Of a stretch of DNA of 64,000 bases, positions 1,154-61,424 are shown one piece after another. The translations under genes were made by a program, and so were the position numbers. Source of the stretch: Heterotrichella gracilis (taxonomy: Eukaryota > Sar > Xanthophyceae > Tribonematales > Xanthonemataceae). Location of the stretch: assembly GCA_032358255.1 (NCBI GenBank), contig JAULBX010026718.1:62001-126000 (forward strand), given 5' to 3'. Position 1 is the first letter of the stretch, and every line of letters starts with the position of its first letter. The notes under the pieces were generated by a model. The model was not told the DNA's origin and did not search any database. It saw only the letters and a list, made by a program, of their open reading frames with translations.

Positions 1154-4100
1154 ATGACAGCATCCACTCAGCCATGGGTGGAGAAGTAGTAAGTATTCAC
1201 CCCCCCCCCCCCCCCCCCGTGACTGCACACGCCCCTGTGCATAGAAAAGAGCTCCACTTGTGAGATTCCCGCTTGTGCCAGTGCTCATGTTCCTGTAGAG
1301 CTTACCCACTTGCCCACACACAGTGCATGTACTTACTGGTCCATCCCATACAACAAGATGGTAGCATATCAAAGGCAGGCTCTGACACTTGGCTGGTGTG
1401 AACTTACCTGCAGCCGACCAAAGAACGTTGGCGAGGTGGCCTGCCAAGAAGAGGTGGTCCAAACGCTGCAGCGGGCACTGGAGTCCAACAACGTATGTAC
1501 ATGCACATGCTTGTCCCTAAACAACTATGCACACAGAAGTTGTTCAGCCGACAATATAGTCGTTGTTCATTTTATATTACCTTTATCTGGGAGTGCACTT
1601 GCCCAGCATATGGCGTGGTCCATGTTGAACAGCCGATGCCATATGCATGCGTACCCCACTTGACCACCTCACAGGCACCAGCTGGCACCTGGCAGCGACT
1701 TGTGTTGGGCAGGAATGCATAAGTAGTTATTGATTTAGTTACATGCATTCCAGCATTCCAGCCAGATTAGCAGACAGGCAGGTATGCATGGCGTGCGGCT
1801 ACTGCCGGTGGATGCATTGCTACAGGAGCATGCATCTAACTGTAACTGTAACTGTAACTGTAACTGTAACCATCTCCCTCCCTGTGCAGCTCCCCCACCT
1901 CCTCTTCTACGGCCCGCCAGGGACCGGCAAGACATCCACAGCACTCGCAATAGCCAGGCAGCTATTTGGGTGAGTGGTCTGCACGTTTCACACCCAAGGC
2001 CAAAACACCACCTGCTGCACATGGTCATGCTGGGATGCTGTCACACAATGCAAGGCATTCCCATTTGGCAGCAAAGAGAAAAACAGATAACTAAGCCAGA
2101 ATACATACAGTTATATAGCAATGACAAGTACTTGATTGCCGTAATCACAATTGTGATACTTGACACAGTCCATCAGTCCATCAAAGTCCATTTTGTATAT
2201 AAGGGTAATTTCATCGTAAAGCGCAGGCCCGAGCCCGAGCTCGAGCTCGAGCTGAACGCATTTTTATTTTCATTGTTACACATTTTATCATTGTATGTTT
2301 GATTGTTTATTCCACCTCCGTGTTGCGCAGGCCGGAGCTGGTGAAGGTGCGGGTGCTCGAGCTGAACGCAAGTGATGAACGAGGCATCAACGTGGTGCGC
2401 CAGAAGATCAAATCCTTTGCCGCAACCTCGGTTGGGCATCCAGTGGCGGGCTACCCCTGCCCGCCCTACAAGCTGCTGATACTGGACGAGGCTGACTCAA
2501 TGACGCAGGTGCGCGCGCTGCGAGAATCACAGAAAGTGAAGTGACCCACCTGGGAAGAGTATAAGTTAATCTCCGGATGGCATTTCTGATGTGCTTCAGC
2601 TTGAATCTAGTCTGGTGTGGCCCGCACAAGATGTTGTGCGCGTCATGGGACCCTATACCCTAAATACAAACCCTAAACCCTAGCTTTGTTTATCTGCTTA
2701 CATACACACCTGTTCCCACAGACGTCACACCCACCCAATTGCACACTCGGTAATGCCCCCCACCCCCACCCCACCCCATATCCCTGACGCATCACCCTCC
2801 CACCCCCCACTCCCCGCAGGATGCCCAGAATGCCCTGCGCCGCACCATGGAGGCCTACTCAATGATCACAGGACCCTAAACCAATTATCCTAAACCCTAA
2901 ATGCTAAACCCCGCAGGACGCGCAGAACTCGCTGCGCCGCACCTTGGAGGCCTACTCAAACATCACGGCACCCTAAACCCTAAATCCTAAACCCCGCAGG
3001 ACGCCCAGAACGCGCTGCGCCGCACCATGGAGGCCTATTCCAAGATCACTCGCTTCATCTTCATATGCAACTACGTGTCGCGAATCATAGAGCCACTGGC
3101 CTCCCGATGCGCCAAGTTCAGGTTCAAGCCGCTGAGCGGGGGGGTCATGACCGACCGGGTGCAGCACATCTGCCAAGGTGGGTGGGTGGGGCAGCGCCTG
3201 GGACAACATTACTGTGCAAAACTATACAAATAACGATTCCTATCACGTGAAATAAAATCCTCATTTTTATCTGCGTGAGCATTCAGCAGCCTGAACTGGC
3301 AAGTTCTTGAAAATTCACAGCCGAAAACCTAACACCCCATGCTGAGCACCACCGGTGCTGCCCGGCAGTGGAGGGCGCCAGGCTCAGCGAGGATGCAATG
3401 GAAACCCTGAACCCTAAACCACGAGTCCTACACCCTACACCCCAAACCCTAAGTCCTAAACCTCACACTGCAGTGGAGGGCGTGAGCCTGAGCGAGGAGG
3501 CCATGGAGACCCTAGGCAAGGTTTCCGGCGGCGACCTGCGGCGCGCCATTACCACCCTCCAGAGCGCGGTGCGGCTCAAGGGGAGCGACGTGGACCCGCA
3601 GACCATACTGGACGTGGCCGGGGCGGTGCCCAAGCACGCCATCGACAAGGTGTATGCGGCGTGCGGCAGCGGCGAGTTTGCGAAGGTCCAGGCGGCCATC
3701 ACGGAAGTGATTGCAGATGGCTACCCGGTGCGAGGCGCATGCATGCACTATTACTACATCATTATGATATCATTACGTCATGATGTCATGTGATGTGTTG
3801 TACTTGCATTAAAATTACATTGGCACAAGGGTGCATGGCGGGAGGCAGGGTGCGTGTATGCATGGAGGGGTGGCTATGCTAGAAGTGCTTGTGTATGGAT
3901 ATCTGCCGTGTGTGTGCATGCATACCCCGGCGCTGCAGCATGCGCTGGGGTACGTATGCACCATACAGCAGACAGCCATCCGCAACCACTTCTAACATAG
4001 CCAATCCCCCATGCATACATGCATGCGTAGGACTATTCGCTGTATGACGCAGCCATTTTGCATCCATGTCCCCCCATTTCTCTTGGGCATCTACATGTGG

Positions 4101-4578
4101 GTAATCATGGAGGATTGCCACCCTCTGCATGGCGCATGGGCATGGCACGGTCCCTGGCGGTCCATGCTCCTCCAAGTGGATCCCTGCATGAGCACTGTAC
4201 ATGCGCACATGCGAGCATGCATGCTCTGAAGCACAGCTCACCTGTTGGTGCATCAGTATCAACATCAAAACGCGCCTCAAACATTCCCCATTTCCTCACC
4301 GACCACCATCAACCCCATGCAATCCCCATGCAAGCGCAGCAAATCCCCATGCAATCCCCAAACGCAATCCCCACGCAATCCCCACGCAGGCGCAGCAGAT
4401 CCTGTTGGAGCTACAGGCCACGGTGCTCGGGGATGACAACCTCAAGGAGCTGCAAAAGGCCAAAATATGCAGCCAGCTGGCAGAAGCCGACAAGAACCTG
4501 ATCGATGGCTCTGATGAGTACCTGCAGCTGCTGAATGTGGCCAGCTGGGCGCAGCGGGTGGTGTGCGGCACCGCATGA
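1154..4578 (+). CDS. RFC4: replication factor C small subunit (RFC4/RFC2-type clamp loader)
   Basis: AAA+ subunit of the nuclear clamp loader that opens PCNA and places it on primed DNA. Seven exons: 1154-1188, 1414-1492, 1890-1969, 2331-2508, 3000-3177, 3474-3727 and 4390-4578, giving 330 residues, the usual length for this subunit. The start is the ATG giving [17 protein letters not shown], which leads straight into the conserved RFC N-terminus. Visible motifs are Walker A ([10 protein letters not shown]), RFC box NASDERG, Walker [10 protein letters not shown], sensor/arginine-finger region [16 protein letters not shown], and the collar domain ending [11 protein letters not shown]. Exons 4, 5, 6 and 7 each have degenerate extra copies of one border nearby (2221-2260, 2816-2976, 3365-3410, 4643-4703), so automatic gene finders may choose wrong acceptors. 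Family assignment is firm. The choice of RFC4 over RFC2 naming rests on plant convention and is less certain. Confidence 0.93.
1200..1218. repeat. 19-base poly-C tract in RFC intron 1
   Basis: An uninterrupted run of C lies about 11 bases inside the first intron, just after the donor. On the opposite strand it is a G-run. Its exact length could be a sequencing or assembly estimate. Confidence 0.9.
1837..1870. repeat. TGTAAC hexamer repeat before RFC exon 3
   Basis: About five and a half perfect copies of the hexamer TGTAAC lie in RFC intron 2. The array ends about 20 bases before the acceptor at 1888-1889. Its position and its TAAC units would allow it to offer branch-point-like sites, which is inference. 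Confidence 0.9.
2221..3410 (+). repeat. exon-edge echoes inside RFC introns 3-5
   Basis: Degenerate copies of RFC exon starts lie upstream of the real ones. 2221-2260 copies the exon 4 start (real from 2325). 2816-2870 and 2913-2967 copy the exon 5 start (real from 2996). 3365-3410 copies the exon 6 start (real from 3470). Each copy includes its acceptor CAG and 35-55 bases of exon. The exon 5 and 6 copies are separated by CCCTAAACC-like runs. In the exon 5 copies the reading frame stays open from exon 4 until a TAA inside CCCTAA. Confidence 0.85.
3855..4018. repeat. long fold-back hairpin in RFC intron 6
   Basis: The left arm 3855-3928 and right arm 3945-4018 are near-perfect reverse complements; for example GGCTATGCTAGAAGTG pairs with CACTTCTAACATAGCC. 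The short loop is near 3937. The transcribed intron would fold into a stem of roughly 70 bp with scattered mismatches. It could be a small-RNA precursor or a fold-back MITE remnant; no target-site duplication was recognised. Confidence 0.75.
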
Positions 4579-6648
4579 ACGTGCACGAGGCCATGCAGCG
4601 CCACATCGATCAGCCAATCAGCGAATGCAGCACGCCACATAAGTACCTGCAGCTGCTGAATGTGGCCAGCTGGGCGCAGCGGGTGGTGTGCGGCACCGCA
4701 TGAGTGTACACGAGGCCATTGCAGCAGGTGGTGTGCGGCACCGCATGAATGTGCACGAAGACATGCAGCGCCATGTGAGTATCAGCTTTACAAGGCAAAG
4801 ACGTGCAGCGCCTCATGAGTAGGCCAAAGAAATTCAGCGTCATAGAGACAGCACAAGGCATGAGCGCCACATGAGTAAGCACAAGGCATGCAGCGCCACA
4901 TGAGACGGCCAAGGACATTCAGCGCCACATGAGTCAGCACAACGAATGCAGCGCCACACGAGTAAGCACAAGGACCTGCAGCGCCACATGACACGGCACA
5001 TGGACATGCAGCACACATGAGTCAGCACAAGCACAGTTGCAGAGAGGCGCATCCAGCCCATCACTGGCTGGTACATGCGTGGACATGCATACCAACAACA
5101 GACATGGGCTCTTGTCCTGGGTGTGCATGTAACCATGTGCTGCCTTGGTGGGGTCATGTTTTCGTGTGCATGTGACAGCGCGCTGCATGTGTTCATGTTG
5201 CACAAAGACATGTTCATGGCACGCAGACATAGCCATGGCCGGTTTGGTCTTTGTATGCATTAAACTCAGCAGGTGGCGCACTTGTCGCTTACCTTGTTCT
5301 AGAGTGCTGGTACTGGTGGCTGTTACTAATTGTATGTTGGTTGAGCGGAAATGAACATCACAGCAAAGGGTAGGGAGGGCATGGGATCCTCGTGGAGCAC
5401 TAGCCACACGCACATTCATGTGTATATATGATGCGGGATCACCCACATACGTGCATTGGATTTTGGTCTATGTGACGGGTGCGCCAGATTCTGAAGGAGA
5501 GGTGTGCACAAGTTGGAAAACCTCCACTGGCAAGTGGGTGTCACACAGTGCTGGGCGAGTCTGCTGCAGGTGCTGTGCAAAGGTGACTCAGCATAAAATT
5601 GAATGCCACCCTCAAACAGACAGGCTGTTGCCCGCTATTGTGGTGACTGAAACACCCACAACACACCCATCCCATCCACCTGGCACACAAAAAGTGTTTG
5701 CTTTTGGGGGCCTCCATGTCTATCGTGTAGCAGCCTGGACCTGGCAGTTTTGGGCACTCCCAAAAAAGGGTCCTCAGATTGCAGCCTGATCTGGGCTCGA
5801 CCCTAGATCACATGCACCGGACTTGAGTGCAGCCCGTGCGGCGCATGGGTCAGGGGCACGTCGTCGTACCGCCAGCAGGGGGCCAGTCGTACCGCCAAAA
5901 TGGGTGCAACCAGTTGGCTTGCACACTAGGACCCGTGGCCTTTGCCTCCAAGCGATTTCCCGGTTCTAACTGATCTCTACCTGCAACAGCTTGCAAGAAG
6001 GAAACCGCCCACGACGCAGTTGTGCCCACCAAAGGCTGGCCTCGGGTTTCTGCGGCACAACAGCCCCGGGCCGGTAATGCAGTCAGCATTTCAAAGTTTG
6101 ATGGGCAGGTGCTGCGGTTGCACCTATCGGACACCACCCAGAGGGCAGTTCTGCGGTACGCGCATATGCACCACAACAGCTCTCGCCTCACAAGCAATTC
6201 CCACTACTGTGCCCACAATTAGATAGCTTGCTTTTAGCTCGTTGCTTCCCGAGCAGAGCGTTAAAGAGTGTTATTACTGCTCAGTTTGGCAATGTACAGG
6301 AGCGTGGTTCATTCAGCGTCGGTTCAATTTGCCCTCGCTCTTGCGGAGCCTGCAGGCTGCAGGCCTGGTGACTTGCTGCATGGACCTCCAAGACTTGATG
6401 CCAGTTTCTCCAAGGTATGTCTGTGTAAACGTGTACACTTCGACGCATTCCCCAGATGCCAGAGCTGCATTACTGTTCATGCAATGCAGACTGGGAAAGC
6501 TGGCTGCAGGCTGCATTCCCAACCCAGTGCACTTGCCCACTTGCAGTTGATGGCTGTGAGTTTGAGCAACCTCTCCAAGGAGGCACGAAGAGGAAGAAGT
6601 TCCTTTCTGGGCCACTCTTAGCTGAGAATCAAACATCCCAGTCGGTGC
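4579..6648. other. spacer between RFC and the B3-like gene
   Basis: The first 450 bases are a degenerate repeat array derived from the RFC tail. From about 5040 to 6648 I see only short frames with no recognisable protein. Upstream exons of the B3-like gene could lie in 5900-6640 but cannot be defined: frames there lack family features, and the frame used at 6649 has a stop at 6619-6621. Confidence 0.45.
4643..5035. repeat. RFC 3'-end duplicate grading into a degenerate minisatellite
   Basis: 4643-4703 repeats the last 60 bases of RFC coding sequence including the stop codon, almost unchanged. A third fragment follows at 4722-4780. The segment then passes into about ten irregular units built on GCAGCGCCACATGAGT followed by AGCACAAGG-like sequence, spaced about 30-60 bases. 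The CATGCAGCGCCACAT core is already present just after the RFC stop (4592-4607), so the array probably grew from that flank. Confidence 0.8.
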
Positions 6649-20761: not shown

Positions 20762-23700
20762 ATGTTCGGGGGGGATGCTGTCGAGGAGGAGCCCCATGAG
20801 GAGGATGCAGAAATCACACAGGAGGACGCCTGGGCTGTCATCTCCTCCTACTTCGAGGACAAGGGTCTGGTCAGGCAGCAGCTGGACTCCTTCAACGAGT
20901 TCATCAACAGCAGCATGCAGGAGATTGTGTACGAGCAGGGCGAGATGACGGTCAGACCGCAGTCGCAGCACAACCCAGGGCAGCAGGTTAGCACGGAGGA
21001 GAAGGAGGTGAAGGTCAAGTTCAAGCAAATTTACTTGAGTAAACCCACCATGACGGAAGCGGACGGCGAGGTGGACCTGCTGTACCCAAAGGAGACACGG
21101 TTGCGCAACTTAACGTGAGTGTGACAGCACTGCACTACGACTGCAGACTGTACCCCTGCCCACCCACCATGCAGGGGCCCATCAGAGTGGGTGTATGTGT
21201 GAAGACTTCCAAAAAGTGCCATATGGCTACAGGATGCACTAACAGTATCCGAGTCTTGCACTGCGTGTGTGCATGCATCATTGGCCTACATGCATGCATA
21301 TACAAAACTAAATTTACCACTTGCTGGGCAGGTATGCTGCCCCCCTGTACGTGGACATCGATATGCAAACCACGATTGAGAGGCCAGACGAGGAACTGAT
21401 AGACGAGAAACAAGTATTTGAGAAAACTTTCATCGGCCAGGTGAGCAAACAGCGCGCTCCCTTTCTCTGCTCCACACCGCAATACACAAGCAGGCGTGGG
21501 ATGGGCTTCAGGAGTCATGTGGGTTCCTTGCATCTGCCTCATTGGTACAATGTGTGGCGCAGGTCCCCATCATGCTGCGCTCAGACTACTGCAACCTATC
21601 AGGCCACACCGACAAGGAGCTGTCAGACCTGGGCGAGTGCCCATATGACCAGGTACGCTTGTTATACACACTGGTTGCCATATATCCGCTCTCGTAATGT
21701 CCACTCCCATCACAGCCCGGCAGGCATGCATGCTGGATGTTATGCAACTCTGCCAATGGGGGCAAAAACCTTGTCTGAGCTGTGCTTTGGCTGCAGGGAG
21801 GCTACTTTGTGATCAATGGGAGCGAGAAGGTGCTGATTGCACAGGAGCGCATGGCCAACAACCACGTGTATGTGTTCAAAAAGTCCCAGCCATCCAAGTA
21901 CTCGTACATCTCGGAAGTCAGGTGAGCTTCAAATGCACATTGCCCAGCAGTAAGCCAGCCATGGCTGGCTGTATTTTTAACTGCATATTGGCAACAGCAC
22001 AAAGTGGCACAATGTGCAAGCATGAATAACAGTTGGCTTTAATTTCTACCACCATTCATCTCAATTTCATTGTCCTTTAGTGGCACCATCTGCACGCCAT
22101 CTTGTTCTCAGCAATGAAACTTGGGGAATACCATCACCCGTTAGCTTCACAGCCAACCAACTATCACCCGGTTGTTCACAGGTCTGTCATGGAGAACAGC
22201 ACCCGGGCCACCAGCTCGTGCGCCATCAAGATGCTGTCGCGGGCAGGCATGAAGCAGGGCGGCGGGCAGTGCATACGCACCACCATCCCCTACGTGCGCA
22301 CAGACATACCCATCCTGGTCATCTTCAGGGCGCTGGGATATGTGGTGCGTGCAGAACAGCCCAGGTTTAGGGTTTAGGGTACACGTTGGCATGGCCATGC
22401 ATGACCAAACCCTTCATTACAGCCAACTGGCGATGGTTGATGGCATTGACTCTTCAATGTTTTCCCTGCTGCTCATTCAACTGTCTCTGATGCACGTGAA
22501 TGCAATGCATGGGTCCAATGCGAACATGCCCACAAATCTGATTATATGGGGATCAGTGGGAGAGCCATGAAGGGTCACGATTGCGCCATTTCCCCTTGCA
22601 GGCTGACAAGGACATCCTTGAGTACATTGTGTACGACCTGAAGGACACCGAGATGATGGAGGCGCTGCGCCCATCCATCGAGGAGGCCTTCCCCATTCAG
22701 ACGCAGGAGCTGGCGCTGGACTACATTGGCAGGAGAGGGTCAACGGTGCGTACAACAGCAGATGCAGAGGCCTTAACCCAAATCCTGCATCTCCCACTGC
22801 ACACGGGTCTCCATATCGCTGACACCGAGATGTCAACGAGTATTCTTGACTACCTGAGTCAACTTAGGCCGCCACGTCAGGCAGCCTACTCAAAGTAAGC
22901 GCACGTACACCACAACACCAGCCAATACCATGCCTTGACAACCCCTCTTGTGTGTGTTCCAGGTTGGCGCTGTGAAGGCAGACCGTGTGCAGTACGCCAA
23001 GGAGCTCCTGCAGAAGGAGCTGCTACCGCATGTGGGCATCAACGAGTTCTGCGAGACAAAGAAGGTGGGGGAGGGAGGGCAGCATGAAGTTCATTGCACC
23101 ATGCATCATCAAAAGATGCCGAGCAATGTCACTTCTTATTCCCCTTCCACACATGCAAAGCGTGGCCTGCTTGAATCCTCATTAGTAGATCATGGGCTGG
23201 TGCCATGCATGCAGAAGTGTTTCCTTTGGCTGGACAATCATACCACAATTTCCCATCATGCACGATCCCCACATGCAAACCCCGCAGGCCTTTTACTTTG
23301 GCTTCATGATCCACCGCCTGCTGCTAGTGTCTCTGGTAAATTGTACCTGTATCAATCAATGCCCATCACCGTTGCCTTCTCAGTATCACCCTGCCCCCTC
23401 CCCAATCCCCGCAGGCCTTTTACTTTGGCTACATGATCCACCGCCTGCTGCTGGTGTCCCTTGGACGGCGCCAGGAGGACGACCGGGACCACTACGGGAA
23501 CAAGCGCCTGGACCTGGGGGGCCCGCTGCTGGCTGGCCTGTTCCGCATGCTGTTCCGCAACCTCACCAAGGCGGTGCGGGGCTACGTACAGAAGTGCCTG
23601 GACAAGAGCAAGGAGATCAACCTGCTGACCAGTGTCAACAAGGTGTGCGCGGGGACGGGGTTGGGCATCGGACCTTCTGATGGGGGTTAGGGGTGGGATT

Positions 23701-40200: not shown

Positions 40201-43200
40201 CCTTGTAGGTGACTGTCAAAATGCTTTCTCTCTTGAAGGTCTTACAAATATTTGAATCTTGTATTCACGTCAAATTGCAGAATCCTACCTGCTTGTCCTC
40301 TTCATCCTCCTCCTCTTCCTCCTTTTCCTCCTCTTCCTCCTCCTGGTCCTGCTCCTGGTTCTGTGGTGGGGGTGGGGGTGGGGGCGGAGGGGGCTGGTTC
40401 TGCAGTGGGGAAGGGATGGGGGTCAGTATGGGCATTTACCTCAACAAAGGACAACTTCCTTGGAAAACATGCAAAGGTATCCACTACTTCATAGGCCGCA
40501 TACAGTACAGGCCTTGAAAATGGAACACCGATGACAAATATGCATCAAAACAGCGTGCAGCTTACGTCATCTGGTGGCGGTGCAACGGTGATCGCTGCCC
40601 TTGGCACAAAAACTAGCTGAACAGCCCGCTTTCAAAAATTTGAATAATAAGTTTTTCTTCCAGAAAATGCGAATATTCCATGTGCAAATTCCCAAATTCA
40701 TTTAACCACCAAAAGATCATGGAGCTCACCTCATCTGGTGGTGGCGCGTCTGTGATGGTGGCCCGTGGCAGGATGACCAGCTGCACCGCCCGCTGCAGGT
40801 CACCCGGCTCAACCTCGTCGCGGCCCTCAAGGGCGGCATTGGCCTTGGCCACCCGCACAGCAAACAGCTCCGCCCGATGGCCCTAGAAAGAGGGGGAGAG
40901 GGGAGGTTACTGGGAGAACACATACAAATGGTATGCAGGCTGATTGGAACGAGGCAAGTGGCTCCTTGGCTGGTGCGGCATGCATAATCATCCAGCGGCG
41001 GGTCGTTGCCGCTGACTTGGCGCCACACAGTGCCTCGACCTCGAGGCTGATGTGCAGCTCATATGCAGTGATGTGAGGGTTGATCCAAAGATTTCTGCCA
41101 CCTGCCATCGTTTTCCCTCTCCACTCCCTTGCACGCCTCATCCACCAAGGGTCAAGTCCCCTGCCCCCTGCTCGCTTGCCCTTTCCCTCCCCCGCACCCA
41201 TCATCTCCCCCCCCCCCCTGTGCACCTCATCCACCATCTTTACTACGCATTATGTTAAGCGTCCATCCACTTCCCTCTCACAATTTCCCTCCCCTCTCAC
41301 CTGTACTCCCCCCCTGCGCGCCTCATCCACCAGGTACCGAACCTGCTTGGGCCCAATCTTGGTCTCCTTCAAGTACTCGCGCGCAAACACAACCTGCAGG
41401 AGGGGTAGCCACCCTACGTTAGGGTTCAGCTACAGACGCGCATCTGTTGGGATTGGCTTACAGTAGAGTTTGACCAGGGTTCACATATTGACAGGCAATC
41501 ACAGCCCTGCAGCGGGCTTGAAGGTCACACATTAGGGTGCAGGTATTGCATGCGTGAGCACACACCACCTGCGCCCACAAGGACTGCAAAGCCTGGTGCG
41601 TGGCTCCCTTAGAGATGCTCTTGCGCAATGCATGCGCACCACGCAACTACCTGGAGAGGGCCGGCAGTTGCTGTGCATGCCCAACACCGTGCCTAGAACC
41701 CCAGGCTAGGGTCCAACACCCCATACCCACATGGTACCCACCTGGGTCCTGGTAGCCTTTGACCTCTCCTCCACCTCATCCAGCATCTGGTCGGCCTCTT
41801 CCCCCACACCACCCCTACAACCCTACGCTAGGGTCTCCAACACATAACCCCGCCACCCACCTGCGTCCTGGTTGCCTCCGTCATCTCCTCCACCTCATCC
41901 AGCATCTGGTTGGCCTCATCCTGGAAGCGCATGGCTGAGCTGACCGCCTTGACTCGGTCATCAAAGTTGAACGGCACGTCAGCGGACATGGTGATGGCGA
42001 TGCGGTCAAGCAGGTGCTCGCGCAGGGCGCCCTCCTCGGGGTTGTAGGTGGCGATCAGCAGGGGCTTGCAGCTGCAGGAGGGTATTGGTTAGGGTTTGCC
42101 GTGGTGGGCAGGTGCGTGCCAGTATTCCATTGCAGGGAAATGTGTTCCCCCAGAAATTTTTCTAAGGGTGTGGGGTGATGAAGAGGTGTGTGCCGTCCTA
42201 AGGTTGCGGGTGACGATCAGCAAACGCTTTCGGCTCTGAGGGAGGGTGTTTGTTAAAACAATTCTGAGGGTTTTGGGGTGATAAGCAGTGCTCCCTCCTC
42301 AGGGTTGTAGCTGGCCATCAGCAGGAGTTTGCAGCTGCACGGGGGATCATCAAGTTAGGTAGATATACTAGTAAATTTCCTCCCCAACTTAACCAACTCG
42401 GGGCCCAGAATTGCTGCCGCCATCGCCTGTGCTCCAGGCTGAAACCCAGGTTGTTCAAGACCCTATAAACTCTAGTATTTGGGCATGCGCACTTCCGATG
42501 GAAATACCCTCCCGCTCCACCACTTGACACCATCAGAAAGGATGGACAGCAGCAGATTGCAGGGGAAAAAACCCTTACGCGTGGTAATGCGTGAATTTCA
42601 GAAACTTACGGGTGAGAGATGGAAATACCCTCCCGCTCCACCACGTTCACCCCGTCAGACAGGATTGACAGCAGCAGGTTGCAGATGCCATCATCCAGCA
42701 GGTTGATTTCATCCACGTACAGCACCCCCCTGTGGGCCTCAGCCAGGAGGCCGGGCTGGAACACAGTCTTTCCCTCCTACAAGGGGGAGAAAAAGGAGGG
42801 GATGTTAGCGAGAGGTGAATGGGCGGTGGAGGTGGAGGTGGTTGGGAGGAGTGTGACAACATCCATTCCTGTTCCCCCCTAAACGGAGTGCACATGCATC
42901 CCCTCATGGCCGCCACACTCAGGACACGGGGTATCCCTGTCCTTCACAAGCTGCCGCCAGGTGCCAGCTCCATTTTAAACCCTAACTTAGGGCATTTTGC
43001 ACACCTTCATAGAGGCCTCGATATCCACAGTTCCCACCAGCCTGTCCTCAGTCACCCCCAGTGGGATCTGCACAAAGGGCGCTGGCTTGATCTTGGTAGG
43101 CACCTCCTGGCTACCCAGCTTCTCAGCAAGGCCATCCTGCAACGGCACCGCCACTTTAGGGTTTAGGGTTTTGGGTAGCCATGCTGCGCTCTAGGGTTTA

Positions 43201-45125: not shown

Positions 45126-48100
45126 ATGCATGCATATAGGAGGCTCGCCAGGCTCCTGCTGACCCATGCAGCCAAGGGAAGAGGAGGCAGTCAACCACAG
45201 ATATCTGTGCAGCCAAGTTTCAGCCTCCACGATGTAAGCACGCGCAAACAGCCGTCTACCACGGTCTTTGCTGTATGCATGCATTCACAACAAGAGAGCA
45301 TGGCTGTGCCTGTCTACCAAGGCAGTGAAGTGTGTATTAGAATCTGTAAATATTTGCTCACTCCGTACGCACCGCCCGGTGTGGTATGCTACCATATCAC
45401 TTGTGCACCCCATTTCCCACCTCCACCACCCACTATCACCACCAGTACCGTCACCACCGCTGCATTACCGTTGGTCACCCCTTCTCCCTCCCACATTGCT
45501 GCCTGTCTGACCTCTCCCAACGTCCACCACCTAGATGTCACATTGTTCCATTCCCAGCCTGTGTGCCCATGTAGCAAGCCCTAATAACATTGGCGAGCAC
45601 CCCATCCACCATGATACAAACAGAGAGTGAGGCTCACACACGAACTACACTGCATCGCGCCTACCACCTGCGTGACCTCTACACCAACCTTGACCTTCCT
45701 GCCCTACCCTAGGGTCTCCATGCACGCACGTGGACCAGCACCACCCCTGGCGCCCCCCACCACCCACCACCCCACCCACACCATGGCCCCATCTTGGACC
45801 ACTTCCAGCCCCTGTGCACCGCAATCCAGGAGCGGCAGGGGGCAGCCCGCAGCACCGAAGAGTCGGTCAGGTGCCTTCTGCAGGCGCTCCAAGACGCAGG
45901 CTTCACCCACGCCCACGTAGCCAAGATGATCAGGCAGTGGTCGCAGGTGGGTGCTCGAGTACCCAGATCTGTGTGGACTTCTGACTTCCGTCTCCTGTCA
46001 CTCTTTCCTGAGCATTTGATCACCTGAACCATCCGCTGTATTTTGGACAACATCCGGGGTGCCAACGCCTGCACCTGAGACCCCACAAAACACCCACCGT
46101 CAGTTCATCCGAAAATCGCAAACCTTGTTTCGTTTTCCCACCTCCTCCATCTGCACTCTTTCTTGCCAGGTTGGCACCATCGATGCGGAGAGGGTGGCGC
46201 CCAATGTGGAGGTGCTAGCGCGGTACATCCCCGACAGGGAAACCCTAAGGAGGGTTTGTGCGTCGGCGCCCTCGCTGCTGCACCGCCGGCCCGAGTCCCT
46301 GGTGCTCATGCTGCAGCGGATCGAGGGTTTAGGGTTTACCGCCGCCCAGGTAGGGTTTAGGGAATAGGGTTTTGCCTTCCTTGCATTCTGGTTGAAAGAA
46401 CCGGTGCTTCCCCTGCTGTTTGCTCTGGCTCTCGCAGGGTTCTGTTGTCTTTACTGGGCATGCTACTTAGGCCTTGTTCTTTCTTTAAACGTGTGGGTAG
46501 GATACAAATTAATGGCATGTAAAAGCCAATTTTGCAACCCCAATCCACCCAGGGAGTGGTGGGTAGATGCGGCGCCAACCTGGGCTCCCCACCTACTTTT
46601 ACCCTTCCTCCTGCGCTCTATCATCAAGCTGCAGCCAACCATTACAATCACAATGTAGAACACAATTCCATTACTAATACAACCCCTTTTTCTCCCAGGT
46701 GGGCGACCTTGTGCGGCGCCAGCCGGCCCTCCCCACCTACGACGTGGTGCCCGCCTTCAATCTCCTGGCAACCTACATGCACCCCGCGCGCCTACGCACC
46801 ATGATCATGCTGCAGCCCAACATGGTGGTTGGGTACAACACGCTGCTGGCCAAGCTGCACTGGATGGAGCATGGCTTGGGGATGAACCAGGATGAGATCG
46901 CGAGGGTGTTGAAGCACCGGCCGGGGTTCCACGGGCGGGGGCTGGAGGCCTGCCAGCAGGTGCGCGCTAATCAAATAAATAATATAAGTAGTTTTGTCAT
47001 CTCAAGTATGAGGGCGTTGGTTGAGGAGGTGGGCGCCTGCGCTTCTGCTTTGCTTTTTGCTTGGGTCTTGACCTTGTTGTTGCTGTGTGGGCTGCTGGCT
47101 TCTGTCTCTCTTCCCGACCTGGCCGCTGTTGGTTTGCCTTATGGTTAATGCAGTTTGTTAAATCATAGCACTATGATGGTACTTTGAGCACGTGCAGTAA
47201 GAAGTCAATTTCTGAGTTGTACCCGCAGTTATCCCTTATTTTCAAGGGTGGTTTTCAGCGACTCCAATCCCCCCCTGCACTTTTCGCTTTCCACCTCCTT
47301 CATCTGCTCAGTTTGTTCTCAGGTGGTTGCCTGGATGACCTCTAAGGGGGTGCCGTCTACCGAGCTGGCAAAGTGCATCATGCACAACCCCTCGCTGTGC
47401 GCAACCAGCATCCAGAAGATGGAAAAAAACTACGAATTTTTCACGCAGTCCCTGGGGTTCAGCAGCGGGGAAGCGGCCAGGGTGATAATTAATGCGGGGC
47501 AGGTGAGGGTGGCCAAATTCTCAGGGATGGTGCTTCGGGTTTTTGCGAACCTGCTTTTTTTTGCATATGGGTGGTGCAGTGCTCTGCACGCCTCCGCTGC
47601 AGGCTGCTCATGTCCCAGGGAGTTGCCTAAGGCCCGTAATTTCTTCATTGGTACAGTCATATACGGTATATAATTATAAACGACGACCCAACGCCCCATG
47701 CCCCGGGTCCTTAATTTCTTCACTGGTACAGTCATATACGGTACATAAAATAAACGACGACTCCACGCCCCATGTCCCGGTCATCATCATCATGACTGTC
47801 TCCAAATATCTGTAATTCCTATTATCATATATTATCAAAATTGTTATTATTTCTGGGCAGGTGTTTTCGAGCCGGCCAGAGTACCTCCAGGCCCGCATGC
47901 AGTTCCTGAAGGAGGTTGGAGCACCCAAGGAGCACATCGTGGTGCATGCAGTCGCCCACCTCAAAACAGGCCTAGGCACGCGGCTAATCCCCAGGTACCA
48001 GTTTGCGCTGTCGCGGGGACAGCTGGGAATGTTCCGGGATTTGGACACGGGCGAGCTGGTGAGCTACCGGCTGTTTGGGGGCCCTGACGAGGCGTTTTGC

Positions 48101-51317: not shown

Positions 51318-54300
51318 TTATCCCTTGCTAGCCCGCACAGCCGCCACAACCTCCCCCGCCCCCACAGCCCCCACCGCCGCCCCGCCCCCCGCGCACCCCC
51401 CGCCACCCGGCCCAGCAGCCGCACTATACAGCATGGCCAGCAGCATCACATGGAGCAACAGGGTGTACCCCGCCAGGGCCAGGCGGGCCATTCTGCTGGT
51501 TGCCAGCACCCTCGACCCCCCCAGTATGGCCCGATCGTGTAGCGGCACCTTGGACGCCTGCTTGTCTGCCTCCTGCTGCTGGAACTCAAGGTAGGGGTTG
51601 ACGCGCGCGGCGTAGGCCTGCAGGGGAGAGAAAAAGCAGGTTGGGATGGGAATGGAACAGTCGGGAGGCATGATCAAGGATTTGTAGGGGAGGGCCTGCC
51701 TTTCCTCTACATTGCCGGTCTGCTGTGTTGCTGGAACGCATGTACATTTACTTCCATCTTGGAAATGCCAAATACTGTACCCAACGCCCCATTTCACGCC
51801 ATGGTATGATCCAGCACAGGGGCGACAGAATATGGTATTTGATTGAATGGCAACTGTCCCCGCTAAGGTCCTCTTGTTTGCAGTGTCCCTCTCTTGCCGC
51901 ATAAACAAATTGCACCCTGTCCCTTGTTGTCACATCCAGGGCTCCCACCCTGGATGACACCCCGCCTTACCTTGAAATACTTGCCCGCAGTGCCAGTCAG
52001 CTGGCCTGCTTCCAGGTCCTCACCTAATCGCATCACACCTTTTCCCCCTGATCATATCCAGCATTCCCCCTTGATCACATCCTACCTCACCCTACACCTT
52101 GAACCCTAGACCCTACACCTGCACTACACCGCGCCTCACCTTTGAGTACTTGCCCGCAGTGCCTGTCAGCTGGCCCGCCTCCAGGTCGTCCCCCCCTCCC
52201 CCCCCCATGCCGCAGATGGTGCGGTTGCGGGTGCCCGCACGCGACCGCACCTTGCCGCCAATGGACACCATGACGGGACCACACCGCATCCTGCACGGGA
52301 GGGGGTGTAATCAAGTTGCATGGGGGGATTGAGCTGAGGCCCCCATCTGAGGGAGGAAGGGGCAATATTGATTTTGCGATTTTAGCCTCATAAGAAGTGA
52401 CGAAATGCTGTAGGGTTTAGGGTTTTCCTATTGGACACATGACAAGCCGCTCACACCGCATCCTGCATGGGGATGTACGGACATCATCACCCACCCCGCC
52501 CATCCACGGTGTGCAAGTGTGTGTCACAAGGGAGCACCGTGTCTTGATATGGTTGGAGTGCAAGGAAACCCTAAACCCTAAATCGTAATGTTTTTCATGG
52601 GGAAGTGCAAAAATGTTGCAAGGGAATGCCATCAAACGGTTTGATGACAAAGCAGGCATGTGCCCCGTGCAAACCACCGCCACAACCACCACCATCATCA
52701 CACCACCAGCACCACCCACCACCACCACCACCACCCACCTGTCATACTCCGCCCCCTCTTCCGCAAGAGGCACGCCATCCCCGTTCACCCGCACTATCGT
52801 GCCCGCACCCCCGACGCCGCCCCCCTTGCCGCCGCCCACCCCACCCCCGGCTTCCTCGGGTGCCCGCCGGTACTGCTGCAGGTATTTTAGCTTCCCTACC
52901 AACTCCACATTATCATTTTTCAAAGCGGCTGTTTCCTGAATCGAGGCCTGGAGTTTCTGGTGGGTTGTGGCGAGGTCTTCCGATAGCTGGTCGGCCCTGC
53001 GAGGAGCGCAAGAGCTCAGAAATAGGGTTTTGGTTGGGGTTTCAGAGGATTTGACCAGAGATTTGGCAGTGCAGGTGCTTTGGGTTCCCCACCAGCTCAA
53101 CACTGCCCAAAAATATCCTTTTACAAACAAAACCCATTTTTCCAGCTATAAAATTGAATATTACTGTATCAAGTGCTGCTGCTTTTGACATAGAGGCAAA
53201 CCCAGCCGTGCGACCTACAGGCTGGCCATCTGCATGTGCACTGACAGCAACAACCCAATAAACCCTGGGTAAGGGTTCACAGAGACTTGTCCCACTAAAC
53301 CCTGGGTAAGGGTTTGCCGCACCGTTGCTTCAGCCTGTCCCGCTGCCCCATGACCACCTCGAGCATGTCGCCACCACCTGCCCCTGCACCACCCGCCGCT
53401 TGTGGAGCCCCATGAGAGGGGGTGGAGGCCAGTGCTGCACACACATACACACACTCGTGTCAGCAGGAAACCCTAGGCCAAAACCCTTGCAAACCACTGT
53501 GGTGCCTGGCACGCAATGGATTAAGTGGGACACAGCAACTTGATGCCACCCCCCGCAGAAAACCTTCAGATGCACCCAGGCCTCGGCAAGCAGTCACCTA
53601 GTGATACATACCCACTTGACACCCTAATCTCCCCTGCCTGCCCCACGATGAATACTCGTGAGCCGCAACACCATCCTATCACAATGTTACAAGTTCACCC
53701 AGATGCATCATCCCCCACACCCACCTCCCGACCCCGTCCGCCCTGTCGCCGCTGCAATGTCCCCTTCCAGCCGATCTATCAACCTCCCCTGGGCATCACA
53801 CTTCGCCTCCAGACCAGCCAGGCGATGCTGCGCATCAGCCAACGCACGCGTGCGGTCCACTGCGGCAGCCTTGAGCTCCGTAACCTGCAGGGGTAGGGTC
53901 AAGGGTTTAGGGGTTTGGCAGTGGCGGATGGCGCCCTAGAGCGGGTGTTTTTGTCCATCATTACATCATATGGATTTAGGCAGGAGCCCAGATTCCTACA
54001 CCACCAAGTGCAGCAGCTGCAGCCTGGAGGTCAGTATAGACGTCACCTGCAAAAGTAGGGCTTTGCCCACGGTCGGTGAAACACTAGGATAGGGTTTGCT
54101 CCAGGTAGATAAAATCCCAAGCAAATGGAAGTGCCCCATGTCCAGCCCCCCCACACCAACCCCCCCCACATCCGACCCAAGCACACTACCCCACCCACCC
54201 CCACCCACAACATCTCCCTCACCTCATTGGACAGTGCCCTGTTGCGGTTCTGGAGCAGCGTGAGCACAGAGGTGCCTGGACCAGAGGTGCTGAGCTTTGC

Positions 54301-57300
54301 CAGGTCAACATCCTCAATCTTGCCATCCACAAGCGCACTCAGGACCTGCAGAGGGAAGGGCAGGGTGGTGGGGGGGAGTAATGGCGTTGGGAAAGGGGAG
54401 ACAAAGAGCCCTTCATTAGGGGGGTTGCACCTCCACCTTGTCAACCCTGCACACGTGGTTGTATGTTGCAGCCTGGGTAACGCTTCAAAAGGGTTGCACG
54501 GCACCTCCTAAGTCCTCCACAAGGTTGCATTGCTGCTCCAAAACCCTCTTCACCTGCAGGCTCTAGGGTTTGCCCCGTCGCCCTCCCACCCCCTACCCAC
54601 CCCCTCACCTGCAGGCTCTCCGTGAGGCGCTGCATGTCCGCCACCTGCGGCCGCGTGCCCAGCTCATCCTGTGCCTGCGCCACCTCCTCACGTAGGGCCG
54701 CCACCTGGCGCTCTAGCTGCGCGTTGCGCTCCGTCAGATCGTGCGTGCGCACGTCAACCTGCAATGGGGGACACAGCACATGCCTACATTTTCATGGATG
54801 TATCCACTCCGTATGAGTCCCAAGTCAACGCCACTGGTGGCAGGAAGGTGGGGGCCCAGCTCAAAAATCACGTCTCAGGCCGCCTGGTGAGCCGCGCACT
54901 CATTGCACTCGACCTCCTGTTTGGGCCATAGCTTCCCATGGCTTGCCCCAAAAACCTGGTACTCTCAACCCATCCCCTTACCCTTCCCGGCGCGCATTCT
55001 ACTATCCACCTCCTTAATTCTGGGAAGGTTTTGCCCTAAAGAGCCGCCCTTGCCTCCTTCTTCGCCACTGTCAGCTGCGCCCTCAACCCTAAGGGTATCC
55101 CCACCTCCTTGTTTACCCTAAAGGTTCACTCACCTCCTGCTTTGCCATCTCCAGCTGTTCCCTCAGCGCCGCCACGTTGGCCCCATCGGCAGCCGCCACC
55201 GCAAATGATCCCGCCACCTCCCCGCCAGTCATCTCAGCCAGGCGAGCCAGTGTCAGGGACTGGTCGTGCTCAAGCTCCCTGCAGGGTTTAGAGTTTTGGT
55301 GTTTTAGGTGTAGTGTTCTTAAAACTTAAATTCTGGGGTGTCATGGACAGGTCTTGCTCAAACTCCCTGCAGGGTTTAGGGTTGAAGGTTTAGAGTTTTA
55401 GGATCAAACGTTTGGGGTTTTAGGGTTTAGCTATCAGGGATTGGTCGTGCTCAAGCTCCTGGCAGGGTCAGGGTTTAGAGTTTCAGGGTTTTAGGGTTTA
55501 GGTCATGCCTAACAAGGGGGACAGGCATAGATTTGGGTTGCATGTGGGGATGGGGGACGAGGGGGGCTCGCCAGAATTCCCTTCACGTCCAAAATGTGCT
55601 CTGTGTGTGACCCACATGGGACCTCAACGGCCTCACTCATTGTCAAAACCCTACCATTGGAATTCAGAAACCCTACCCCCACCCCACCGCACGCGCCCCG
55701 CCAGCCGCTCCGCCTCCTGCCGGGTTTCCGGTATAGAATTTCAGGGTTTCAGGGCTACAAGCCAAAACCCTAACCCCAACCCTACCTCACACGCCCCGCC
55801 AGCCCCGCCGCCTGCTGCAGGGTTTACAGTTTAGGGGTTTAGGGTCATAGGGACCGGAAGTCAGAACCCTAACCCAACCCTAAACCCTACCGCACGCGCC
55901 CCGCCAGCCGCTCCGCCTCCTGCAGCGCCAGCGCCAGGTCAGCACCCTGCGCCTCCGCCCCCTCCTCCCCCTTGGACTGAACCTCAAACAGGCGGCTGTG
56001 CACAGCATCCAGCTCAGCCTGGGTGGCCGCCAGCTGCGCGCGCGCTGCCGCCAGGGCCGAGGTCAGGGCTTGGTGCTCCTGGGCGGAGGCCTGGGCGGCG
56101 GGGAGGGCGGCGGAGAGGCGGGACACCTCCTCGCCCTGCGGGGTGGTGGTGGGGTCGGGGTCACATGGGATCACAAGCGCCTTGTTTTTGCCCAGCAGCT
56201 GCTCACTCCACTCAGCCCCCTCGCCCCCATCATGGCCTCAGCACCCTCAAACCCTTCCCACACACAAAGCCTGCCTCCAATTTTCAGCCAGCACCCCCCC
56301 TCCACCACCTGCTCCTCAACCTTAGCGCCCAGCAGCAGCTCGTTTTGCTCCAGCATGCATTCATCTTTCACCTCCGCACCCACCACCGCCCCAGCAGCCT
56401 TCCTCAAACCCTTAAGCAGGACAAACCCCTGCTTCAAATCCCAGCAAATACCCCCCTCACACCCACCTGCTCCTTGACCTTTGCGCGCAGCAGCTCGTTT
56501 TCATCCAGCAGCTCCTCCACCCGGCCAGCCAGCTCCCCTCTGGCAGCGGCACCGCTCACAGCCTCATGCAGGGACTCCTGGAGCTGTCGCCGCTCAGACT
56601 GGGCAGCTGCGGGCGGGTGGGAGGGGTGGTGGAGGATGGAGGGGGCCAGCGCAACATATTATCCCCAAAAGAACGTTCCAGACTATTGGACTTTCCACAG
56701 AATAACCAAAACACATATTGTAAAAGAGGTACATCATTAGAAATCCCACTTATGACATGGGCCCTTACATGGGCCCCTTTCTGCTGTACGGCTGACCAGA
56801 GAATCCTCCTCCGAATCCCAGACCAGCTCTGTGCCGACGCTTGGGCTTCCCAAGCCAAACCCCCTCAAGACCCTTGGCTAGGGTCCCCACCTGCCAGGCT
56901 TTTCGACAGGTCCGCCACCTTGTCCAGGTGCAGTCCAGGGTCAAGCAATTGCAAACCCTTATTTAGGGTCCTATTGTTCAACCACCACTCTACACCTACA
57001 CCCCAATGAATCTCCTCGAGGATCCTGCATAGCTGGGTTTTGAAACCCTTGGCTGGGGTCCGTACCTGCCAGGCTTTTCGACAGGCCCGCCACCTTCTCC
57101 AGGTGCAGCCCAGGGTCAGGCGCGTGCAGCAGCGCCACGCAGATCTGGTACAGCCCGTTGGCGTCATCCTCGGGGAGTTGAGAAGGGGAGCGGTGGGAGA
57201 GGGAGTCAGCCACTCGGGTGAGAAGCTCCTTCTCGGCCTGGGTAATGGGAGGTTACTTCTCAGGGCTTAAGGTATGCGGTGCCGTGCTCTTTTTCTTTTG

Positions 57301-58740: not shown

Positions 58741-61161
58741 ATGTTGCTTCAAAACGTCTCCAGCTTGACCGCCCAGCGCCTAGGATGCGTTGCAAACCCG
58801 TCTGCGCGCGTGAGGGCGTGCGCATTTAAGGTAAGGAATCGTCCAACCTTGTTGGAATGTGCGGCATCCGGCATGATGGCCCATCTCATCGCACAGCGCC
58901 CACCAGCACCGCCCACCGCCACGGTCCACGCGATGGACCACGTCTGGTACAATACCAATCACGTATTGTGACACTCGTTCTGCCTGTTTCCTCACATATC
59001 CCTCTACCTCGTCCAACCCGAGGCAGTACTCCACATCGCACACAAAACACCTCGAGGCAGCTGCTTCCAACACCTGGCAAGCACCTATTCTACCATCACC
59101 AATGGGGAAGAACACGTCCCTGCCTGTGCAGCCTGCTTTGCCAGCTCAGCTGCGGTCAGCGGGTCGCACCACCGCCAGGCCAAGGCAGATCCATCAGGCA
59201 TGCAGGGCAGACATCCTGACCATCAAGGAGCCTACCACTGGCGCGGAGTTCCCCGCAGTCCGTGAGTTCTGGTGCGTATAGCCCTCCACAATCTTGCCCT
59301 TGAGGCTCAACCCCTGTATCACCATGCCCTCTGATGCACCCAACCCAGAGCCCCAGACATGTCATTGACATACTTGGGTTTGCGCATCCCCACATCCCCA
59401 ACCGCTTGTCAGTACGTAGCGCGTTGCACATCCCTGGCCTCCTCCCTGCGCTTGGATGTGCATCCTCTACTGGGTATGGGTAGCTACTGTGTAGCAGCTA
59501 TTGATAGCCAGGCGGGACGGAAAACACTATCCCTGAACCTGACACCCTAACCCAGGGTTTGCTATGCAGGGTGGGTGAGCCGTACCGCAGCATGGGCGCA
59601 GGCTGCAGGGTGAAGAAGATTGCCATTTTGTCTGTCAAGGTAACGTCGCCACAACCGTCTGTGCTGCACGCGTGTTGTCACACACACCCTCTGTACCAAA
59701 GCAAGTGCTCAACCTCGATGCCCCGGTTTAAAATTTCAGTTTGCAAACACTTTATCATGTTGATCACCATTGCGCCACCACACATGCACCCACCACATGT
59801 GCATCATGCAGCAACTTCGGTGCGAGATTGACCAACTGGCATCTATTCTCATCATCACCTCTGCCATGCATGATAAATGCAAGTGTGTGACCCAATCACA
59901 GCCTTCAAAATTCCTTCTTACCCATGATTACCCCCCGCACCCCGCAGGTCTACGCCATCAGCGTGTATGTTGAGGCCGAGAAGGCAGCTCGGGAGCTGGG
60001 TGTGCGCGAGCGAGGGGGCTTCTTTGCAGACAACAACGACGAGGACTACACGCTAGCGCTGGTGGATGGCGCCTTCAACAAGGTCATCCAGGTGAGGCAA
60101 ACCCTAGACCTTAAACCCTACCAACGAGGACTGTATCATACCCTGGCGCTGGTCGATGGCGCGCTCAACAATGCATTCGGTAAGCCAATCTGGGTCCATG
60201 TGGAAAATTGCTGATGATGAGGAGTTTTAGGGCACATACTGCATGTGTGCTCCAGCTGTCAGTTGCGAGTAGCGCTGCTGCACGTGCCTCGGCCCACTGA
60301 ACTGACCGACCAAGGCTGGGGCCGATATTCCAATCAAATCACTTGCAGATAACACAAGACAATGCAAATACTTTATCCGCATTTCATTCCTTGTGCGTGC
60401 AGATTCAGCTGGTGCGCCAGGTGGACGGCAAGACCTTTGTGGAAGCCCTGGACAAGGTGCTGGAGCCGCGGCTGAGGCTCATGCAGGCCACCGCAGCCAT
60501 GGACCAGTTCAAGGGCTTCTTCCTGGACAAAACCCTAGACAAGGGTTGCGAGGTCACGCTGCTGCTGCGCACGGACGGCATGGTGGAGGTCACGCTGCGG
60601 AATGACACGGGCACCGACTACTCCAAGGTGGGAGGAAAACAGGAGTTATCTAGAATCGTTGCGATTAGGGTTAGGGTTTAGGGTTAGTGGCGCAGTGGAG
60701 GTGACCCTAAGGAGTGTTGAGGGCACGGACTACTCCAAGGTGGATGATTGACAGAGTACAGGTTTTCTTTCTTTTCTTTCATTCCTCAATGTTATTGGGT
60801 GCCGATTTTGGGCTGCGGGGTCACCTTGCTGTTGTTTCTATGGTTAAGGGTTGATGCCTTGTAAAAACGGATCATTGATGGCGTGCTGATGTGGCTGCGT
60901 TTGCATCGCGACTACTTAAATGACATGATCTGCACACCATGGTTGTGCGCCACCCTGCACCCTGAACCCTAAACCCTTTCACTGCCACAGGTGACCCCCG
61001 ACCTGTCCATCGACAGCGTGGCCCTCAACCGCGCACTCATGGAGATATACCTGGGGGCAAGCGCGATCCTGCCAGACGCGCGCGCGGTGTGGGCCAACGG
61101 GGCCCGCGCCCTGCTTGACTCTGAGAATGTGAGGCGCTCCTCGCGCAAGAGCGGAGGGTAA
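58741..61161 (+). CDS. chalcone-isomerase-fold (FAP-type) protein, plastid-targeted
   Basis: Six exons (58741-58830, 59189-59271, 59570-59639, 59948-60091, 60403-60627, 60991-61161) give 260 residues. The fold is that of chalcone isomerase and plastid fatty-acid-binding proteins (FAP1-3). In algae without flavonoid synthesis it is expected to bind fatty acids rather than isomerise chalcones. Seen: a short transit-like exon 1 (MLLQNVSSLTAQRL...), EPTTGAEFPAVREFW, GAGCRVKKIAILSVKVYAIS (the typical KK-x-x-VY strand pair), TALE-like helices around LRLMQATAAMDQFKGFF, LLLRTDGMVEVTL, and a final ALNRALMEIYLGASAI. All junction phases agree. The region around exons 2-3 is the least certain. Echo copies follow exons 4, 5 and 6. 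Confidence 0.82.
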
Positions 61162-61424
61162 AGGGAAACCCTAGCTAAGGGTATGCTTGGTGCTCGACTC
61201 TGAGAACGTGAGGCGCTCTTCGCGCAAGAGTGGAGGGTAGATGGAAAACCCCAGCCAAGGGCGTGTGCCTGATGCACACATACGCCTGGCGATCGCCAGG
61301 CTTGGTTTTTGTTGGGAGGGTCAGGCCGCAGTGGGCAGAGCGCTGCAGCAGGAATGTGGGTGGGCCATTGGGGCGTGAGTGCTGTTGGAATTAGGGGACA
61401 TGAGGCGCTTCTGGCGCAAGTGTG
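60135..61424 (+). repeat. exon-edge echoes in the CHI-fold gene
   Basis: 60135-60178 repeats the exon 4 end (60050-60092). 60685-60745 repeats the exon 5 end with donor (60573-60632). 61185-61240 and, more weakly, 61388-61424 repeat the last coding bases GAATGTGAGGCGCTCCTCGC with stop (61110-61161). In the 61185 copy the stop has changed from TAA to TAG. Confidence 0.82.

Follow-up and report, generated by a model that had tools for sequence, protein, structure and literature searches.

Exon borders in many genes of Heterotrichella gracilis are flanked by local tandem copies associated with telomere-like sequence

Why should the borders of exons in several unrelated genes be echoed, in degenerate form, in the sequence beside them? 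The question is raised by a 64,000-base stretch of the xanthophyte Heterotrichella gracilis (GenBank assembly GCA_032358255.1, contig JAULBX010026718.1, here C420, bases 62001–126000; hereafter the window), in which an initial annotation, made from the sequence alone, had described such copies, here called echoes. The comparison of the window with random regions of the same assembly (68.5 Mb, 903 contigs) indicates that the echoes derive from local tandem duplication of units spanning a border and that they represent a real, genome-wide and unusual mutational signature.

The random sample comprised 19 regions of 10 kb (190 kb, set L031–L050), the twentieth (L039, C6:50001–60000) consisting entirely of N and therefore being dropped. 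Exons were identified with a purpose-written exon-chain finder, with seeds read by eye, retrained on the window and the 190 kb sample and corrected by reading, which gave 215 confident exons, of which 62 belong to the window and 153 to the sample. Among the genes in the window, RPB2, the RFC lid, G-patch, the CASP C-terminus and PLAC8 were supported by Pfam, and CHLD/ChlI weakly so (one search below cut-off, another at E 0.00076); CHI-fold, mTERF-like, BTB-like, glycoprotein and SPX are labels from reading alone, to which Pfam lent no support.

Border-spanning probes were used for 174 borders of 11 genes in the window, a copy being defined by at least 12 exon bases, E ≤ 0.01 and a position within about 450 bases. 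Direct copies were found at 27 borders and an inverted copy at 1; among the direct copies, RFC 4100–4138 and RPB2 24828–24860 are weak (E 0.004) and were left off the feature list (Table 1). The copied borders belong to RFC (5/12), RPB2 (6/42), CHLD (6/28), CASP (6/26), CHI-fold (3/12) and the mTERF-like gene (1/10), and the same probes detected none in the BTB-like (0/12), PLAC8 (0/4), SUGP1/G-patch (0/8) and glycoprotein-like (0/8) genes or in the SPX region (0/12). The resulting contrast between genes (27/130 vs 0/44 borders, p 0.0002) uses a grouping that was chosen post hoc. A plain self-search of the window (E ≤ 1e-3, within 1.5 kb) returned 30 local direct repeats and 0 inverted ones. 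The initial annotation had reported same-orientation copies at 20 or more borders in five genes and none in the PLAC8, SUGP1, SPX and glycoprotein genes, all of which agrees with these counts, the same five genes being recovered along with the single mTERF-like border. It had also listed two gene ends with a copied stop codon; such stop-region copies exist, but they number three (RFC 4654–4725, RPB2 29668–29722, CHI-fold 61192–61261). After the copied RFC stop region there is, in addition, a tandem array with a unit of about 29 bases (window 4796–5035), which by eye shares words with the post-stop sequence.

When exon sequences were aligned to 600 noncoding bases on each side, with inverted and shuffled controls, 29 of the 153 exons in the random sample had a flanking copy, against 0 in either control, and the echoes thus extend past the window; the same test gave 14/62 in the window. 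The copies were not clustered among the sample regions (permutation p 0.52). Hits reaching within 3 bases of an exon edge made up 35 of 59 (one exon may give several hits), the other 24 being excluded from the edge count. All but one of the 35 follow a simple side rule, by which a 5' edge has its copy upstream and a 3' edge has it downstream. In 27 of the 35 the copy extends into intron sequence, with the run-on scoring at least 5 in the alignment; in 7 the score of the run-on is lower, maybe by chance, and in 1 there is none. Local, mostly border-crossing copies at 5' and 3' edges alike had been claimed at the outset, and this description stands. The side rule is as expected from tandem duplication of a border-crossing unit, which leaves one copy continuous with the exon and the other stranded in the intron. 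A few young copies hinted that intron-side breakpoints gather at splice sites, but this was ruled out, as the run-on spans 0–119 bases.

Orientation is almost uniform: after filtering, the window and sample together contain 76 direct pairs within 400 bases vs 1 inverted pair. The sole inverted local repeat that passed the filters lies at L036:3604–3839 (84% identity). Copy identities range from about 70% to 100%, and the process may still be active, as the initial annotation had supposed from varying divergence. Many loci have the layout unit, filler, unit. In the clearest array (L046 7735–7912), a 38-base unit occurs three times, the first identical to the third and the middle one a single base off, and the units are joined by two different telomere-like fillers. 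Paralogues suitable for dating were not recovered with queries from L046 and L040, which matched only themselves and short stretches, and the assembly held no alleles for the one RPB2 stretch that was checked.

The presence of telomere-like sequence at the joins, also part of the initial annotation, was confirmed in two ways. A set of 157 direct pairs was reduced to 54 by low-complexity and telomere-content filters and to 49 by removing overlapping joins and joins shorter than 6 or longer than 400 bases. With a criterion of at least 11 of 12 bases being telomere-like, filler was found in 20/49 joins, compared to 5.8 ± 2.2 in random intron stretches (maximum 14 in 2000 draws), while sequence of equal length just outside the copies contained it in 8/49 and 5/49; for joins from the sample only, the figures were 11/30 vs 3.3 ± 1.6 expected. 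Conversely, 42 of 84 intronic telomere-like runs were bracketed by direct repeats vs 79/672 position-matched sites (odds ratio 7.5, p 4e-15) and 35/218 random intron sites. Outside introns the proportions were 14/53 for runs vs 21/582 for control sites, and inverted bracketing was seen for 2/84 intronic and 0/53 non-intronic runs. Thinning to one run per 500 bases left 22/49 bracketed, and the sample alone gave 29/54 vs 25/167 in introns and 13/48 vs 12/397 elsewhere. Of 30 loci picked solely by a telomere-like 17-mer, 7 were set aside as repeats or too short, and among the remaining 23 there were 6 bracketed directly and 1 inversely. Bracketing and join enrichment together show that the telomere motif and the duplication share one history, and the two different fillers at L046 7735–7912 imply that filler arrived with each event.

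The motif itself is abundant. The 17-mer CCCTAAACCCTAAACCC occurs at 2437 genome sites (1206 + 1231), vs 1 for the reversed pattern, and long CCCTAAA repeat arrays stand at several contig starts, which identifies this as the real telomere repeat of the genome. Telomere-like runs make up 2.6% of intron (2.26% in sample introns alone) and 0.08% of exon sequence in the window and sample taken together, and 0.84% and 0.26% of sequence near to and far from exons, respectively. The motif AAACCCTA is found 1845 times per Mb intron compared to 90 for a scrambled control (sample alone 1676, control 103); the published values are 150.7 for Arabidopsis and 72 for rice, where strand counting may differ (Table 1 of PMC3022908). 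It is also the most frequent of the seven permutations (207 vs 111–151 for the other six), which follows from preferred run ends and starts: GGGTTT closes 22/48 runs of at least 14 bases in the window and sample (p 2e-8), and there is a preference for runs to begin with TAGGG or AGGG (25/48, p 0.011). When motif-picked loci are added, 31/86 runs end after GGGTTT. Such non-random ends speak for templated synthesis and possibly hint at a telomerase RNA template. On the sense strand of 150 introns of at least 200 bases in the window and sample, telomere-like runs contribute 348 G-type and 221 C-type bases to the first 100 positions, near donors, and 57 and 393, respectively, to the last 100, near acceptors. 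Small palindromes of two telomere-like halves, in the order CCCTA..TAGGG, were spotted by eye at window positions 53259–53277, 56871–56884 and 61168–61182.

Whether the duplications are aimed at borders, as the initial annotation held, is less straightforward. Within-exon duplications are purged and intron-intron ones fade faster, and therefore some border bias is expected anyway. A simulation was constructed with uniform tandem duplications of uniform age, purging within exons, intron-intron pairs diverging twice as fast, and the same detection as for the real data. From 64 observed clusters, 22 were set aside (19 outside gene space, 3 exon-exon), leaving exon-intron and intron-intron pairs at 34:8, vs 791:1171 simulated (p 9.8e-8); an earlier version of the simulation gave 333:545, the ratio being about 0.6–0.7 in both. 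Of this, 18:1 comes from the window, whose echoes were the reason for choosing it, and the ratio in the random sample by itself is 16:7 (p 0.005). Among pairs with an identity of 85% or more, the ratio is 10:5 vs 261:450 simulated (p 0.028), and the border excess leans on the older pairs and on a guessed age spread. The excess of exon-involving pairs over the filtered model thus holds, strongly with the window included and moderately in the random sample. What did not carry over from the earlier claim is the aim at borders as such, since an excess of exon duplications that is visible only when one end lies in an intron would look alike, and the result may reflect duplication-prone exons rather than borders.

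The same figures bear on the idea that there is no aim at borders or exons at all, so that random small tandem duplications are purged inside exons, fade fast in introns and remain in view where they cross a border. This logic must hold in part: the observed identities fit the uniform-age simulation (below 0.85 in 24/34 pairs seen vs 530/791 simulated), echoes are unlinked to exon length, flank GC or GC content at third codon positions (GC3), and the excess is far weaker outside the window. As a full account it nevertheless appears distinctly unlikely to us, because each of the three observed ratios exceeds what filtered simulations give and because the telomere-like filler is left unexplained.

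We consider it somewhat probable that the echoes arise by error-prone end joining of staggered breaks, in which the overhang is duplicated and telomere-like filler is added. A staggered break, or a pair of nicks on opposite strands, would open the DNA; both ends would be filled in before joining, which would double the stretch between the nicks, roughly 40–150 bases; telomere-type sequence (TTTAGGG/CCCTAAA) would be added as filler in a large share of events; and the ends would be closed by error-prone joining. Where the doubled stretch contains a border, one copy would stay as the working exon edge and the other would drop harmlessly into the intron, where it would be slow to lose its likeness because the exon partner is under selection. 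The breaks, the fill-in and the end joining are steps that we infer from the layout, and the addition of filler by telomerase or telomere-capping factors is the least certain element. The strictly direct orientation speaks against snap-back and against copying from an inverted template, and the location of filler at joins, not at outer flanks, against unequal exchange between tracts. In mammalian cells, fill-in by CST/Pol alpha-primase at breaks with 3' overhangs yields small tandem duplications (PMC8355091), the same complex also serving telomeres, and insertion of telomeric repeats at breaks, sometimes with target duplication, is described in PMC2246262 and in section 2.5 and Table 5 of PMC7215372. 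A model put forward for the spread of telo boxes in plants draws on telomerase, free 3' ends and error-prone repair within transcribed sequence (PMC3022908). Fill-in joining, telomeric break insertion and telomerase-driven spread might, by analogy, be united into one route, and TERT and Ku-family exons are present in the genome.

Several observations weigh against end joining with added filler. The 62 bracketed runs show no strand polarity (nearer the left/right copy: G-type 13/18, C-type 15/13), exclusive flush cases are balanced (3:4 and 3:3), opposite-strand run pairs in the random regions and the window are G-then-C in 12 and C-then-G in 12 cases, and in-register overlap of at least 3 bases occurs on the primer side in 2 and on the distal side in 2 of 54. 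Telomerase extending a 3' end predicts a bias, and this lack of polarity therefore counts against its direct action. Fillers are degenerate even between near-identical copies (one locus, L046 7735–7912), where telomerase should give clean repeats. Filler is lacking from 28/55 joins, and the tie is weak when whole introns are compared (a run in 19/39 echo introns vs 35/125 others, p 0.02). Neighbouring runs are non-independent and control sites were chosen to be run-free within 60 or 200 bases, which makes the p-values too sharp. A single-step origin of copy and filler is itself something we infer, and the Stn1 search matched nothing anywhere, which makes it uninformative. Priming at GGG, suggested by single loci in RFC, L046 and L049, was also considered and failed in the overall count.

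The lack of polarity, combined with the strong tie between tract and duplication, would suit the reverse order of events, in which telomere-like tracts (telo boxes or old insertions) came first, were prone to breakage, and had the adjoining DNA duplicated by slippage or unequal exchange. Some units indeed carry a tract inside each copy (L040 4343–4570). Unequal exchange, however, needs tracts at the outer ends, and the outer flanks are unenriched (8 and 5 of 49 vs 5.8 expected), while the near-identical copies at L046 are separated by two different fillers; we regard this order as unlikely. Far less probable is a function, e.g. in splicing, by which copies and motifs would be selectively kept as G-rich runs near donors and C-rich runs near acceptors. 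The intron layout of G- and C-type bases given above is what this would predict, but avoidance of AG near acceptors would produce the same layout, the copies are diverged and truncated, and 90/164 introns lack echo and motif alike. If the copies were target-site duplications of mobile elements or introners, or if new introns were born by tandem duplication, duplications flanking inserted filler would be accounted for, and direct repeats near splice sites are widely reported (PMC11782384). The fillers read at the loci are, on the other hand, short, telomere-like or unique, and mutually different; a 2050-base RPB2 stretch with two echoes, the one stretch searched, matches only itself and one 65-base stretch elsewhere; and the copies cross splice sites that already existed, all of which makes such an origin highly improbable. 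We give next to no credence to an assembly artefact: one near-identical pair does adjoin an N gap (L040 5804–6104), but most copies are 70–95% identical, truncated, split by unique filler and spread over many contigs.

End joining of staggered breaks with duplicated overhangs, the reading we prefer, also has precedents. Small tandem duplications at staggered breaks have reportedly been described by Schiml (2016) and by Vaughn and Bennetzen. The present copies differ from these in having telomere-like filler at many joins and in persisting as long-lived relics of exon edges. Local duplication near splice sites is familiar from intron gain by tandem duplication and from introners, whereas here the copies cross existing splice sites and sit within existing introns, with no dispersed family at the one RPB2 stretch searched. 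In being direct, adjacent, tens of bases long and attributable to end joining, the copies do resemble the break-induced duplications described in PMC8355091.

Mammalian interstitial telomeric sequences inserted at breaks (PMC2246262, PMC7215372) are alike in consisting of the genome's own repeat type at internal sites, in both orientations and sometimes with direct target duplication. They differ in that simple duplication accounts for 3/66 horse sites, with 2/66 more in a combined class, whereas half of the intronic runs are bracketed here, and in that human sites lie in introns at the random expectation (31%), whereas introns are strongly enriched here. Plant telo boxes share the preferred permutation, AAACCCTA being favoured here as in the 5' untranslated regions (UTRs) of Arabidopsis and rice in the data taken from PMC3022908. 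There, telo boxes favour 5' UTRs and are at or below average in introns (151 and 72 per Mb), in contrast to 1676 per Mb intron here, and the parts of that article drawn on describe no tie to flanking duplication, such as is seen here. Among titles and abstract openings of the open-access literature, with subscription papers mostly outside, we recognised no report of exon-edge copies with telomere-like filler. The phenomenon is thus related to known kinds, namely break-inserted telomeric sequence, telo boxes and small tandem duplication, and what looks new is its frequency, its intron location and the tie to duplication.

It has long been asked how introns grow and how telomere motifs come to lie in plant genes, and models for this exist while footprints are few. 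Here, about a fifth of the sampled exons (29/153) bear a duplication scar that is roughly datable by divergence, many with telomere-like filler, and insertion, duplication and intron change could thus be traced in sister strains or mutation-accumulation lines. A broader and doubtful possibility is that genic breaks are handled partly as chromosome ends, receiving telomere-type repeats and having the overhang filled, doubled and joined, with a preference for exons, and that this would be a main source of intron sequence and a physical trace of telo-box spread in green-lineage genes. For annotation, truncated exon copies with splice-site-like ends may mislead gene prediction, and our exon-chain finder itself took several for weak exons. 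One RPB2 echo (23288–23335) retains an acceptor together with a donor-like end and an open stretch of 48 bases, and is a possible cryptic exon.

Table 1. Exon-edge copies and telomere-like fillers located in the window, in window coordinates.
Coordinates	Strand	Feature	Identity	Remarks
2221..2260	+	Copy, 5' edge of RFC exon 2330-2507	0.76	Border probe
2812..2868	+	First upstream copy, 5' edge of RFC exon 2999-3177 (50 bases of exon, 7 of intron)	0.89	Border probe; array
2870..2908	+	Telomere-like filler (CCCTAAA type) between first and second copies of RFC exon 2999-3177 edge		
2889..2965	+	Second upstream copy, 5' edge of RFC exon 2999-3177	0.91	Includes part of filler
2969..2994	+	Telomere-like filler from second copy to true RFC exon 2999-3177		
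3365..3408	+	Copy, 5' edge of RFC exon 3473-3729	0.84	Followed by telomere-like filler 3409-3469
4654..4725	+	Copy, end of RFC last exon with stop codon	0.94	
23276..23334	+	Copy, 5' edge of RPB2 exon 23415-23642 including splice site	0.93	Self-search and border probe
23872..23909	+	Copy from 3' end of RPB2 exon 23415-23642	0.82	
26454..26519	+	Copy, 5' edge of RPB2 exon 26634-26769	0.89	
26890..26951	+	Copy, 5' edge of RPB2 exon 27042-27180	0.69	Telomere-like run 27008-27021 in spacer
29668..29722	+	Copy, RPB2 gene end (stop-codon region)	0.82	Stop lost in copy; TTTAGGG at 29580 in spacer
38963..38995	-	Copy near 5' edge of CHLD exon 38780-38908	0.82	
39683..39736	-	Copy, 3' edge of CHLD exon 39904-40084	0.83	
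40543..40606	-	Copy, 3' edge of CHLD exon 40730-40882	0.75	
41712..41791	-	Copy, 3' edge of CHLD exon 41861-42071	0.81	
42192..42255	-	Second copy, 5' edge of CHLD exon 41861-42071	0.72	
42285..42345	-	Copy, 5' edge of CHLD exon 41861-42071	0.85	
42497..42537	-	Copy, 3' edge of CHLD exon 42610-42776	0.90	
46568..46596	+	Copy near 5' edge of mTERF-like exon 46699-46959	0.86	
51949..52018	-	Copy, 3' edge of CASP exon 52140-52290	0.84	Telomere-like run 52102-52115 in spacer
52432..52471	-	Copy, 5' edge of CASP exon 52140-52290	0.80	TTTAGGG at 52416 alongside
55338..55402	-	Copy, 5' edge of CASP exon 55134-55278	0.80	With telomere-like filler
55434..55495	-	Second copy, 5' edge of CASP exon 55134-55278	0.82	With telomere-like filler
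55669..55720	-	Copy, 3' edge of CASP exon 55896-56135	0.91	
55766..55820	-	Second copy, 3' edge of CASP exon 55896-56135	0.84	Telomere-like filler on both sides
56285..56355	-	Copy, 3' edge of CASP exon 56467-56606	0.79	
56870..56940	-	Copy, 3' edge of CASP exon 57066-57237	0.92	TTTAGGG at 56962 in spacer
60101..60123	+	Telomere-like filler from CHI-fold exon 59948-60091 to its copy		
60140..60188	+	Copy, 3' edge of CHI-fold exon 59948-60091	0.78	
60664..60686	+	Telomere-like filler from CHI-fold exon 60403-60627 to its copy		
60695..60743	+	Copy, 3' edge of CHI-fold exon 60403-60627	0.80	
61192..61261	+	Copy, end of CHI-fold gene, stop codon present	0.87	
61401..61437	+	Second copy, end of CHI-fold gene, older	0.76	

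Two further elements of the assembly were observed along the way. An 82-base dispersed repeat at L046:7438–7519, perhaps SINE- or MITE-like, has 39 further copies at 88–95% identity among 40 scored of 646 first-look candidates. Intronless full-length frames for bacterial-type DNA polymerase I are found at C442:116638–117765 and C111:216815–217945, and bacterial contigs are therefore probably present in the assembly.

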